From Verrucomicrobiota bacterium (GTDB lineage Bacteria; Verrucomicrobiota; Verrucomicrobiia; Chthoniobacterales; Terrimicrobiaceae): 64,000 bases of DNA. The stretch lies in NCBI GenBank assembly GCA_017305195.1, contig JAFKMU010000045.1, positions 1-64,000 on the forward strand, read 5' to 3'. Every line of letters starts with the position of its first letter. Within the stretch, counting starts at the first letter, position 1. Positions 33,865 through 38,579 of the stretch are shown here, piece after piece. Below the pieces are notes generated by a model. That model made no database searches, was not told the DNA's origin, and saw only the letters and a program-made list of their open reading frames with translations. Both the position numbers and the translations under genes were made by a program.

Positions 33865-36800
33865 TTACTGGCAGGCCTCGCAGATCTCGCCATTTCGCAT
33901 GGCTTCGATCGAGCAGACCATTTTTTCCTCGGCGGTGTATTCCTTGCGGCCCGCTACTCCGGTCACATCCTTCTTCACCTGCAACGTCGCTTTCTCGATA
34001 TTGGAAGCCTGGAGCGTACGCAAGTAATACGTGGTTTTCAACCCCACATGCCACGCTCGGCGATACATGTGGCTGAGCGTCTTCATGTCCGGCGCAGCCA
34101 GGAACAGGTTCACCGACTGGGATTGATCGATCCACTTCTGGCGACGAGCCGCCGCGTCGATGATGTAGTTGAAGCCCACCGAGAAGACCGTGAGGTGCTT
34201 CTGCTTGAGGTGCTCGGGGATGCCCACGATGTCCTTCAGCTCACCGTCGAAGTACTTGAGCTGATCGACCATGTCATCACTCCACAACCCTTCGCGCTTG
34301 AGGTCAAGAACGAGCTCCCTGTTCAGGACAGAAAAGTCGCCCGAGAGGTTCGATTTTGCGTATAGATTCTTATAATTGGGCTCGATGCACGGCGTGGTGC
34401 CGGTGATGTTCGAGATCGTCGCCGTCGGGGCGATGGCGATGACGTTCGAGTTGCGCATGCCCTGCTTCGCGATTTTCTCGCGGACGGGCTTCCAGTCGAG
34501 GCGTCCGCCGCGCGGCACGTCGATCTTCACCCCACGCTCCTGCTCGAGGAGTTCGATGGTGTCCTGCGGCAGGAGACCGCGATCCCACTTCGATCCGCGA
34601 TAGCTCGAGTACGTGCCACGCTCGGCGGCGAGATCGCTCGACGCGCTGTAGGCAAAGTAGGCGATGGCCTCCATAAACTCGTCGTTGAACTCGACGGCTT
34701 CATTGCTGGCAAAGCTCATGTTGCGCTTAAAGAGCGCATTCTGCAGACCCATCACGCCCAGGCCGATGGGACGGTGGCGCATGTTGGAGCGCTTCGCGGC
34801 CTCGGTCGGGTAGAAGTTGATGTCGATCACGTTGTCGAGGGCCCGCACGGCGACCGTGATGGTCTCGCGCAGCATCTCGAGGTCGAGATCGCCATTGTCT
34901 TTGATGTGGGTGTCGAGAATGACGGAGCCGAGGTTGCAGACCGCCGTCTCCTCGTCGCTCGTGTTGAGCGTGATCTCGGTGCAGAGATTCGACGAGTGGA
35001 TGACGCCGACATGATCCTGCGGCGAGCGCACGTTGCACGGGTCCTTGAAGGTGATCCAGGGATGCCCGGTCTCGAAGAGCGCCTTGAGCATTTCCTTCCA
35101 GAGGTCGATCGCCGGGACTTCCCGCCCGAAGATTTTGCCTTCCTTCGCGAGCTGCTCGTAGTGCTCGTAACGTTCTTCAAACTTCTTTCCGTAAGACTCA
35201 TGGAGATCCGGCACCTCGTTGGCGCGGAAGAGCGTCCAGTTCTCGCGGGACTCCATGCGCTTCATGAACAGGTCGGGCACCCAGTTGGCCGTATTCAGGT
35301 CATGCGTACGGCGGCGCTCGTCACCCGTGTTGATGCGGAGCTGGAGGAAATCGTGAATGTCGTTGTGCCACGACTCGAGGTACGCGCAGCCGGAGCCGCG
35401 GCGCTTGCCGCCCTGGTTCACCGCCACGAGCTGGTCGTTGTGCAGCTTGAGGAAGGGGATCACGCCCTGGCTCTCGCCGTTCGTGCCCTTGATGTAGCCG
35501 CCCGTGCCACGCACCGACGTCCAGGAACCACCGAGGCCGCCCGCCCACTTGGAGAGGAACGCATTCTCCGCGATACCGCGGATCATGATGCTCTCGATAT
35601 TGTCGTCGACCTTGTACAGGTAGCAGCTGGAGAGCTGGCTGTGCGGCGTGCCAGAGTTGAAAAGCGTCGGCGTGCTCGAGCAGAAGCGACGGGACTTGTA
35701 CAGGTTGTACAGACGCACCACCCAATCCTCGCGATCCTTCTCCTCCTGGATGAAGAGACCCATCGCCACGCGCATCCAGAAGAACTGCGGCGTCTCGATG
35801 CGGCGGGCCGGCTTGCGCGTCTTGTCGACGATGAGATAGCGGTCGTACATCGTCTGGATGCCGAGGTACTCAAAGTCGAGATCGGCGGAGGGATCAAGCG
35901 CATCCGCGAGCTTGTCGAGGTTGTACTGCAGGAGCTTCGGGCTCAGGCGCTCGATGGTCACGCCATGGCGCAGGTAGCTCTTGAAGGCCTTGCGATGGGC
36001 TTCCTTCAGCCCCTCCATGCCATCGCGGGTGATGCTCCAGTCGAGCACCTCCTCATAGATGTAGGAGAGCAGGATGCGGCCGGCGAACTTCGTAAAGTCG
36101 GCATCCTTCTCGATGAGCGACTTGGCGTTGAGAATGATCGTGCTGCGCAGGCCTTCCTCCGTGATCTCGGTGCCGATGGAGCGGCGGAGTTCGCGCTCGA
36201 TCCTGGCCTCGTCGTAGTCGAGCGTGAGGCCGATCATGGCAAACTGGATGCGGCGCTTGAGTTCGCTGCCGTCCCAGAAAACATTCTGGCCGTCCTTCTT
36301 TTTGACGACGATGAGGGATTCCTGCTGAGCCTCGTCGCTGGGGGCCTGGACCTCATCCTCACGGAGTTTGCTGCGATGGGCGCGGTAAAGGATGTAGCTC
36401 TCGGCCACCTTGTAGTAACCCTGGCGCATCAGCTCCTCCTGGACCATATCCTGTACATCTTCGATATGAATGAACGCCTGATCGCCGCGGCGGATGCGAT
36501 TTGTGATGCCGCGGGCCACCTTGGCCGCAGCCTCGGCGTCTTCCTTGGCGGAGAGGAAAGCCTTGCGGCAGGCGATCTCGATCTTCGCCTCATTCCACGG
36601 AACCACCGCGCCATTGCGGCGAATCAGGCGGACGGAAATCGGCTCGGAGTCCTCATCAACCTGACGGTCGGAAAACCTGGAGGCCGAGCGCTTGAAGACG
36701 AGGCTCTTGGCCACGTCGTGCGCGTCGTTTTCGATGAGCGCCTTTTCGATGAGCAGGGAAAGGTCGTACTCAGAGAGGCGGAGGGCATGCCCCTCGCGGA

Positions 36801-37116
36801 TGTGGTCGAGCAGGCGGGTCGAAACGGAATGCGCCACATTGGCCACGAACGCGCGGTTCTGCTCGTTGAAAATATCCTTTTCCTCGCGGGAGATCAGCAG
36901 GTCCGTGAGGGCGGAGCCGATCTCGTCGGCAACGTCGGCGAGATTGAAGAGCTTTTCCTCACCGGAGTGGCGGGTCACCGTGATTTCCGGAAGAGCGTCG
37001 CTGAAAAGCGAGTCTCCCAATACAGTACGCCAGGCGTAACCGGGCTTCTGGTCGGTGGGTGTGGAGGCGAGGCGTTTAAGAATGAGGTCTTCTTCGAGCG
37101 AGATGTGGCGGATCAT
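33865..37116 (-). CDS. nrdA: Ribonucleoside-diphosphate reductase alpha subunit with three ATP-cones
   Basis: A 1083-residue class I NrdA, about 320 residues longer than E. coli NrdA (761). The extension consists of ATP-cone domains: a degenerate one at about 44-141 ([20 protein letters not shown]), a clear one at 160-250 ([20 protein letters not shown]) and a third at 268-360 ([20 protein letters not shown]). The catalytic part keeps [14 protein letters not shown] (active-site Cys), [18 protein letters not shown] and the tyrosine pair TTYYLRT, and ends in the redox pair CEACQ. It reduces NDPs to dNDPs with NrdB. ATP-cones switch activity with ATP/dATP. Located 48 bases behind nrdB. Confidence 0.96.
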
Positions 37117-37164
37117 GGCGCGTGATGAGGCTGTTGTCGGTCGGTGTTGTGGGGAGACGGCGGC

Positions 37165-38256
37165 TTACAACTCGTCGTCGGAAACGGGCGCAAGGGCGGA
37201 TTTCTTCTGGTATTCCGTCACCTTGCCTTCGAAGAAGTTAGTCTCCTTCTTGAGGTCCATCAACTCGGCCAGCCATGGGAGCGGGTTGGCGATGGGACCA
37301 TTAAGGGGCTGCAGGCCGACGCCTTCGAGGCGGCGGTCGCCGATGTAGTCGATGTAGGAGAGGAATTCCTCCTTCGTCAGACCCACCGCCTGCACGGGCA
37401 GGCAATCGGCGATGAATTGCTTCTCCAGGCGCACGGCCTCAGCCATGGTCGCGCGGAGATCGTTGCGGAAAGCCTCCGTCCATACGTCGGGATTCTCATC
37501 CACCAGCTCCATGAAGAGCTTGCGCAGGAGTTCGATGTGGTTGGATTCGTCGCGCAGGGTATAGCGGAACATCTGGCCAATGCCCGGGAACTTGTTCTGG
37601 CGGTAAAGCGCCAGGATCATGCCAAAGAGTCCGTAAAACTGGGTGCCCTCCATGCACTGGCCGAAGAGAAACATATTCTTGGCCAGAGCCTGCTTGTTCT
37701 CCGTGACGGTCAGATCGATGCCGCGGCGGAGCTTGCGGCTGTTGTTCACGACGAAATCCGTCTTTTCCTTGATCGTCGTGATGTCCTCAAACATCGACTC
37801 GCACTCGTGCGGGTTGATGCCGAGCGAGCTGATCATGTAGACGAGGGAGTCCGCATGGATGTTCTCCTCGTGGGCGTGGCGACCCAGGACGAGCTTCAAC
37901 TCGGGAGCCGTCACCAGTTCGCGAATGACGTGGAGGATGTTATCGCCGACGATGCCCTCGGCAGCCGAAAAGTAGCCGATGCCCATCTTGATGATCCACC
38001 GCTCGATGTCGGCGATGCCGGTCGTATCATCGCGCCACTGCTCACAATCCTTCTGCATCTGGATATCTTCCGGCTCCCAGTGGTTGGCCTTCATCGTCTT
38101 GTAGAGATCGTAGGCCCACTGGTAGCGCAGCGGCAGGATGTTGAAGAACATCGTGTCACGGCCATTGATTACGCGCTTGGCTGCGTAGGCGGCTTCGGCC
38201 TTATCGCGGTCGAGGACAAATTGACGGTCTCCAAGGGTAATCGTGGTCGTAGACAT
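37165..38256 (-). CDS. nrdB: Ribonucleoside-diphosphate reductase beta subunit, chlamydial-like, without radical tyrosine
   Basis: A 363-residue R2 protein that aligns closely with Chlamydia trachomatis NrdB (FSAAEGIVGDNIL; later RQNKFPGIGQ and NFFEGKVTEYQ). Metal ligands are all present: Glu100, Glu131, His134, Glu203, Glu237, His240. Glu100 takes the place of E. coli Asp84, as in class Ic. At the position of the radical tyrosine (E. coli Tyr122, chlamydial Phe127) the codon is CTC, giving Leu138 in EENIHADSLVY. Trp47, Tyr232 and C-terminal Tyr349 of the radical-transfer path are kept. A Mn/Fe (class Ic-like) cofactor is predicted; Mn/Mn is possible. Confidence 0.96.
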   Translation of the reverse strand: MSTTTITLGDRQFVLDRDKAEAAYAAKRVINGRDTMFFNILPLRYQWAYDLYKTMKANHWEPEDIQMQKDCEQWRDDTTGIADIERWIIKMGIGYFSAAEGIVGDNILHVIRELVTAPELKLVLGRHAHEENIHADSLVYMISSLGINPHECESMFEDITTIKEKTDFVVNNSRKLRRGIDLTVTENKQALAKNMFLFGQCMEGTQFYGLFGMILALYRQNKFPGIGQMFRYTLRDESNHIELLRKLFMELVDENPDVWTEAFRNDLRATMAEAVRLEKQFIADCLPVQAVGLTKEEFLSYIDYIGDRRLEGVGLQPLNGPIANPLPWLAELMDLKKETNFFEGKVTEYQKKSALAPVSDDEL

Positions 38257-38579
38257 TCGGTGGTGCAGTAGGGTTTTGTCGTCCGGGGTCGGGGGAACGC
38301 CGGAACGTCATTCCCAGCAATAGACCCTGACCTCCAGCGGTATCGCGCAGGATGCATTTTGCTCCTTTTGGCGTCAATAAAAAATCCCCTATATGGGGGA
38401 GGTAAAATTAAGACACCACAATATATTGTGGTTTGGCGAAATTTTCACACTTCTCCTCTCTTCACAAGAAATTCACATTTTTACGAAGGATTTTAAGGCT
38501 TTGAGAAAGGGCTATTTACGTCATTTGAGGGCATTCTTCTGGCTTCCGTGGAACACTGAAATGTGAAAAATTCATTGCC
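38257..38579. other. Divergent control region of nrdBA and the M42 peptidase gene
   Basis: 323 bases without a convincing gene. The paired NrdR boxes lie at 38385-38431. The stretch 38431-38500 is AT-rich and probably carries promoter elements for nrdBA (minus) or for the peptidase gene (plus), which I cannot place exactly. A 62-codon minus-strand ORF (38169-38357) preceded by AAAGGAG overlaps the nrdB start in another frame and is discussed as rejected. Confidence 0.5.
38385..38431 (-). promoter_or_regulatory. Paired NrdR boxes upstream of nrdBA
   Basis: Box A CCACAATATATTGTGG (38416-38431) is a perfect palindrome that fits the NrdR consensus (ACACWATATATWGTGT-like core). Box B TCCCCTATATGGGGGA (38385-38400) is a degenerate copy. 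Their 15-base spacing (31 between centres) is the arrangement typical of NrdR operators. They lie 129-175 bases before the nrdB start, so dATP/ATP-responsive NrdR repression of nrdBA is predicted. No nrdR gene is in the window. Confidence 0.85.

Follow-up and report, generated by a model that had tools for sequence, protein, structure and literature searches.

A leucine at the radical-tyrosine position of a class I ribonucleotide reductase small subunit in Verrucomicrobiota

Introduction

The R2 subunit of a class I ribonucleotide reductase (RNR) encoded in the window, that is, the whole stretch of 64,000 nucleotides of verrucomicrobial DNA analysed here, carries a leucine at the site of the radical tyrosine, which raises the question of how such an enzyme could initiate its chemistry. 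R2 proteins are distinguished in part by their first metal ligand, which is Glu in class Ic and Asp in classes Ia and Ib (PMC4118035). Class Id follows a different rule, a Tyr with a Glu first ligand (PMC8463856), and has as its signature a Trp seven residues and, in the studied subgroup, a Lys four residues after that ligand (PMC6754362).

The Leu substitution itself is known already. A passage of PMC3824934 that draws on Hogbom 2010 documents Leu, Ile and Val among R2c proteins at the Tyr122 position, the same substitution at the same site as in the window NrdB, and to the extent of that second-hand account it agrees with the initial annotation, which had grouped Leu variants with R2c. Class O ferritin-like proteins also have Phe or Leu at this position (PMC9531940). 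The Leu lineage is apparently uncharacterised: in the open-access literature searched, neither a biochemical study or metal analysis of a Leu-type R2 nor a paper on R2c in Verrucomicrobia was found. Nearly everything known of class Ic chemistry comes from a single Phe-type R2, found in the intracellular pathogen Chlamydia trachomatis, which is the sole class Ic example discussed in PMC4118035 and PMC8463856. The Leu lineage is large and free-living and includes cultured species, among them Cerasicoccus arenae (L029), Luteolibacter pohnpeiensis (L050), Haloferula luteola (L044) and Geminisphaera colitermitum (L068), and the genome of the window has no other oxygen-using RNR.

The nrdB Gene and Its Leucine Codon

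The gene and the codon in question lie as follows.

37165..38256, minus strand: nrdB, R2 radical-initiating subunit of class I RNR, 363 aa (ORF list; PF00268; PRK07209)
37843..37845, minus strand: codon CTC for Leu138, equivalent to E. coli Tyr122 and C. trachomatis Phe127 (alignment)

The protein matches PF00268 with 218.9 bits (cut-off 33.6) and NCBIfam PRK07209 with 314.9 bits (cut-off 309), and C. trachomatis NrdB is its closest solved relative in both sequence and fold, at about 35% identity. The predicted structure is of middling quality (pLDDT 68.5, pTM 0.68) and serves the fold match, not pocket geometry. Alignment with E. coli NrdB and C. trachomatis R2 puts Leu138 on Tyr122/Phe127, just as the initial annotation had read it. 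That annotation had asked for the codon to be checked against the assembly, and a sequencing or assembly error at this point can be practically dismissed: Leu occurs in 110 of 110 first-pass related loci, and position 138 is identical in all close relatives, which come from independent genomes and include two others of the same genus (98% identity). Far from being an error, Leu138 is fixed throughout a large lineage.

A viral origin of this R2 was also considered and rejected. One scan of viral_contigs with the Leu profile returned one R2, of only 21% identity, and the matches to phage records all lie below 60% identity.

Metal Ligands, Radical Relay and Second Sphere

The residues that matter for the cofactor and for radical transfer, all placed by alignment, are listed below.

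37957..37959, minus strand: Glu100, first metal ligand (E. coli Asp84, C. trachomatis Glu89)
37864..37866, minus strand: Glu131, metal ligand
37855..37857, minus strand: His134, metal ligand
37648..37650, minus strand: Glu203, metal ligand
37546..37548, minus strand: Glu237, metal ligand
37537..37539, minus strand: His240, metal ligand
38077..38079, minus strand: Trp60, equivalent to C. trachomatis Trp51 and E. coli Trp48
37561..37563, minus strand: Tyr232, equivalent to C. trachomatis Tyr222, activation electron relay (also PMC4118035)
37210..37212, minus strand: Tyr349, C-terminal radical-transfer tyrosine (C. trachomatis Tyr338, E. coli Tyr356)
37639..37644, minus strand: Thr205-Gln206, second sphere (C. 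trachomatis Ile195-Phe196, E. coli Ile206-Arg207)
37558..37560, minus strand: Thr233, four residues before ligand Glu237 (C. trachomatis Ile223)

None of the six ligands is missing, the first is Glu100 rather than Asp, and both Tyr232 and Tyr349 are retained, as had been claimed on first inspection; across the Leu clade these two tyrosines and Trp60 are invariant. Class Ia R2s combine a radical Tyr with an Asp first ligand, and the window protein has Leu138 and Glu100 at these places.

The second sphere is equally constant within the clade. Thr205 and Gln206 are invariant (144 of 144 and 6 of 6 Leu sequences), as are Thr233 and Gly101, the residue directly after the first ligand, whereas Phe-type and close Tyr-type R2s carry Ile, Leu, Met or Val at position 205, Phe or Trp at 206 and, in every case, Ile at 233.

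Two known systems are close enough to be compared residue by residue. The window NrdB resembles the C. trachomatis class Ic R2c, a Mn(IV)/Fe(III) protein, in its non-oxidisable residue at the Tyr122 site, its Glu first ligand and the other ligands, its equivalents of Trp51, Tyr222 and Tyr338, its overall identity (about 35-39%) and an NrdA partner with several N-terminal ATP-cones. It differs in having Leu instead of Phe, in Thr205, Gln206 and Thr233 against Ile195, Phe196 and Ile223, in the order nrdB-nrdA against nrdA-nrdB, and in a lineage that is apparently separate. With class Id NrdBi (F. johnsoniae, F. ignava and L. blandensis; Mn2(IV,III)) it shares the Glu first ligand, a Thr four residues before the fifth ligand, the expectation that no stable tyrosyl radical forms and, in the case of F. 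ignava, nrdB upstream of nrdA. In L. blandensis that residue is the conserved Thr294, four positions ahead of ligand Glu298, and it keeps the Tyr at a distance from the metals. A Thr likewise occupies this place in PDB 8dq4, an R2 with the Tyr/Glu pair of class Id. Unlike the Leu-type, however, class Id keeps Tyr at the 122 position and has Trp seven residues after the first ligand and, in its studied subgroup, Lys four residues after it; the window NrdB has Ile107 and Gly104 there. F. ignava and L. blandensis also carry an ATP-cone on NrdB.

Operon, Regulation and RNR Complement

Downstream of nrdB lies the gene for the catalytic subunit, and upstream are two palindromes.

33865..37116, minus strand: nrdA, catalytic subunit, 1083 aa, 48 bases downstream of nrdB (ORF list, profile matches, motifs)
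38416..38431, unstranded: NrdR-box-like palindrome CCACAATATATTGTGG, overlapping a promoter-like -10 (upstream scan)
38384..38401, unstranded: second NrdR-box-like palindrome, core CCCCCATATAGGGG, about 31-32 bp from the first

The NrdA motifs are intact (NLCTE at 710, the tyrosine dyad TTYYLR at 1028 and the C-terminal CEAC at 1079). Its N-terminal part contains three regions of the ATP-cone type, of which one scores strongly, at 73 bits, while the other two are weak matches of 21.4 and 14.8 bits, short of the 25.8 cut-off. Within the genome of the window, which is 94.7% complete, no second R2 was found and no second PF02867 protein (NrdJ), NrdA alone matching that family; the other RNR present is a class III NrdD, which leaves nrdBA as the only oxygen-compatible RNR found. 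As the sole R2 of the sole aerobic RNR, standing beside a complete NrdA, NrdB must work without a classical tyrosyl radical, and it is predicted to be a working class I RNR small subunit that lacks the radical tyrosine.

The paired palindromes, one of them over the -10, suggest that nrdBA may be under NrdR control. Of 118 distinct Leu-type upstream regions, 93 have similar boxes, where shuffled sequences would give 16.75, and 34 have spaced pairs, where shuffles give 0.05. A candidate for NrdR itself is another ATP-cone ORF, located elsewhere in the genome. The order nrdB-nrdA holds at every one of the 124 Leu loci that show both genes; the reverse, nrdA-nrdB, is found at all 16 Phe loci and at 17 of the 18 Tyr loci.

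Spread of the Leucine Type

Among 196 aligned R2s, the residues at position 138 and at the first ligand switch strictly together: 150 are Leu/Glu, 19 Phe/Glu and 27 Tyr/Asp, and the combinations Leu/Asp, Phe/Asp and Tyr/Glu have no case in this set. The named relatives belong nearly all to Verrucomicrobiota. In a survey of 289 genomes of this phylum with a completeness of at least 90%, 95 had an R2, and 93 of these could be typed. Leu/Glu is found in 61, one of which has a Tyr/Asp R2 besides; another 12 have Phe/Glu, and the remaining 20 have Tyr/Asp only. Leu is the most frequent state in Verrucomicrobiota among genomes with an R2.

A second Leu subclade (L141, L142, L143, L145 and L156) is about 55% identical to the window NrdB and has His in place of Tyr140. 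The Leu-type R2 of a Fimbriimonadaceae MAG (L081) is nested among verrucomicrobial R2s; its contig is short, and either mis-binning or transfer would account for the placement.

Phylogeny and the Mismatch Between R2 and NrdA

The initial annotation had placed the protein with chlamydial class Ic. The resemblance of the R2s, the ligands and the missing radical tyrosine uphold this assignment in part, but the best trees keep the Leu clade apart from chlamydial R2, and the second sphere differs at three positions, one of which matches class Id. In a tree built without the trait columns, Phe-type and P. aeruginosa-type Tyr R2s form a group that excludes the Leu clade (96/95), and Phe/Glu R2s appear at three places among Tyr/Asp R2s. 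When NrdBk and class Id sequences are added, the Leu clade joins these at 98/99, on very long branches. AU tests rejected neither the union of Leu with chlamydial Phe R2s (p 0.129) nor that of all non-Tyr R2s (p 0.104). The Leu clade looks like a deep lineage apart from chlamydial R2.

PDB 6y2n and alphaproteobacterial plasmid R2s (L186, L195) are of the Phe/Glu type and nest among P. aeruginosa-type Tyr/Asp R2s, which implies that class Ic-like residues arose or persisted separately there.

The two subunits diverge to different extents, as seen when the window operon (33865-38256) is compared with L114-L124 and L236-L241. Between Leu operons and those of the Phe and Tyr types, NrdA identity is 56-61% and R2 identity only 35-38%, where other pairs at a like NrdA distance have R2s of 50-57% identity; within the Leu clade, both subunits stand at 76-77%. 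The P. aeruginosa-type class Ia enzymes (L182, L185, L187 and L188) share the R2 fold family and have NrdAs about 60% identical; they differ in the radical Tyr with an Asp ligand, in the order nrdA-nrdB and in an R2 only about 37% identical. The mismatch between the subunits suggests that R2 was exchanged, or else changed in a burst, when the Leu clade began, perhaps together with the change in gene order.

Proposed Initiation and Alternative Cofactors

Since Leu138 has no oxidisable side chain, the hole would have to be kept on the metals or on another residue, the metals being far likelier, and we regard metal-centred initiation by the Leu-type NrdB as highly probable. Its Mn/Fe version, with a Mn(IV)Fe(III) centre as the oxidant as in C. 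trachomatis, is by analogy the likeliest form and on balance probable, because this is the known state for non-Tyr/Glu R2s and the NrdA partner belongs with that family.

In this mechanism, two divalent metals would bind the NrdB site and then react with O2 (or with H2O2 or superoxide). One electron would be injected via Tyr232/Trp60, giving a high-valent centre, most likely Mn(IV)Fe(III), that would store the oxidising hole, and the hole would pass through Trp60-Tyr349 to the NrdA tyrosine dyad and on to the active-site cysteine. In place of the Tyr or Phe pocket, metal site 1 would be surrounded by a redox-inert pocket of altered shape, made up of Leu138, Thr205, Gln206 and Thr233.

The Mn/Fe reading is favoured by the fixation of Leu in the clade and its strict pairing with Glu, the standing of nrdBA as sole aerobic RNR, the intact relay and NrdA motifs, C. 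trachomatis NrdB as closest solved protein, and the affinity of the window NrdA to NrdAs of the Phe/Glu and P. aeruginosa types, to which it is about 60% identical. The genome also has a gene for an Nramp metal importer, which favours it weakly; Nramp transporters are not Mn-specific. Against it stand the separation of the Leu clade from chlamydial R2 in the best trees, the match of Thr233 to class Id and not Ic, and an R2 identity of 35-38% where NrdA identity predicts 50-57%. Peroxide tolerance, which the initial annotation had expected, would be an extrapolation from in vitro work on the C. trachomatis R2c, which is H2O2-stable and can be made with H2O2 (PMC4118035).

Thr233, Gly101 and the doubtful tree position make a class Id-like Mn2(IV,III) centre, formed with superoxide or peroxide and with Leu replacing the silent class Id tyrosine, a real alternative, though an unlikely one. 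The Glu first ligand and the Thr four residues before the fifth ligand, as in L. blandensis and 8dq4, are both class Id features; Gly101 lies where helix B of class Id unwinds; one tree shows the union with NrdBk and class Id sequences (98/99); and F. ignava likewise has nrdB followed by nrdA, 46 nt apart. That union, however, involves the very long branches already mentioned, the Lys and Trp of class Id are missing, and the protein lacks the Tyr that is essential in F. johnsoniae (PMC8463856). The identities also point elsewhere, the Leu-type being closer to Ic and P. aeruginosa-type enzymes (R2 about 38%, NrdA 60%) than to NrdBk (R2 about 30%, NrdA 34%). A di-iron enzyme whose radical sits elsewhere in the protein, for example on Tyr140 or Tyr232, is improbable. 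The invariance of Tyr232 and the closeness of Tyr140 to Leu138, two residues away, would fit it, but Tyr140 is His in the second Leu subclade, and a Glu first ligand accompanies non-Tyr R2s throughout the sample. Moreover, the R2 of C. trachomatis has both tyrosines, and there neither carries the stable radical. The loss of the radical tyrosine would, taken alone, also fit a non-catalytic or non-RNR ferritin-like protein, whether an inactive beta-prime or an R2lox-like oxidase. We consider this very improbable, as the protein is the only R2 of its genome, occurs in an operon with NrdA wherever a Leu locus includes NrdA (124/124), and keeps the C-terminal Tyr and all ligands. R2lox identity was rejected: no R2lox model scored above 48 bits, where the cut-off is 194, and Tyr349 and the nrdA operon are present.

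More tentatively than the Mn/Fe reading, and with a modest chance of being right, the Leu/Glu/Thr R2s may form a cofactor subclass of their own. Here a metal-only initiator would have an origin separate from chlamydial Ic, the R2 having been replaced or changed in a burst while its NrdA partner, of the P. aeruginosa/chlamydia type, was kept. The second sphere would mix features of Ic and Id, and the cofactor, Mn2 or an unusual Mn/Fe arrangement, would correspond to neither class. The Leu-type R2 is more distinct from chlamydial class Ic than the initial annotation supposed. The change from Tyr/Asp to non-Tyr/Glu occurs at several places in the tree, always as a pair, and this repeated switch, together with the differing second sphere of the Leu-type, makes the choice of the scaffold among Mn/Fe, Mn/Mn and Fe/Fe testable via few residues.

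Variant Genes Within the Leucine Lineage

Two genomes have a second, diverged Leu-type R2 right after the first (L149:4555-5427, plus strand; L151:3540-4385, minus strand), which keeps the six ligands, Leu138, Thr205 and Thr233, with Asn for Tyr232 and Arg or Lys for Gln206, and so looks like a possible beta-prime partner subunit. In one Verrucomicrobiota genome, the nrdB of L008 and L085 has an in-frame TAG at the codon of the Glu237 ligand, either an assembly error or the mark of a broken gene.
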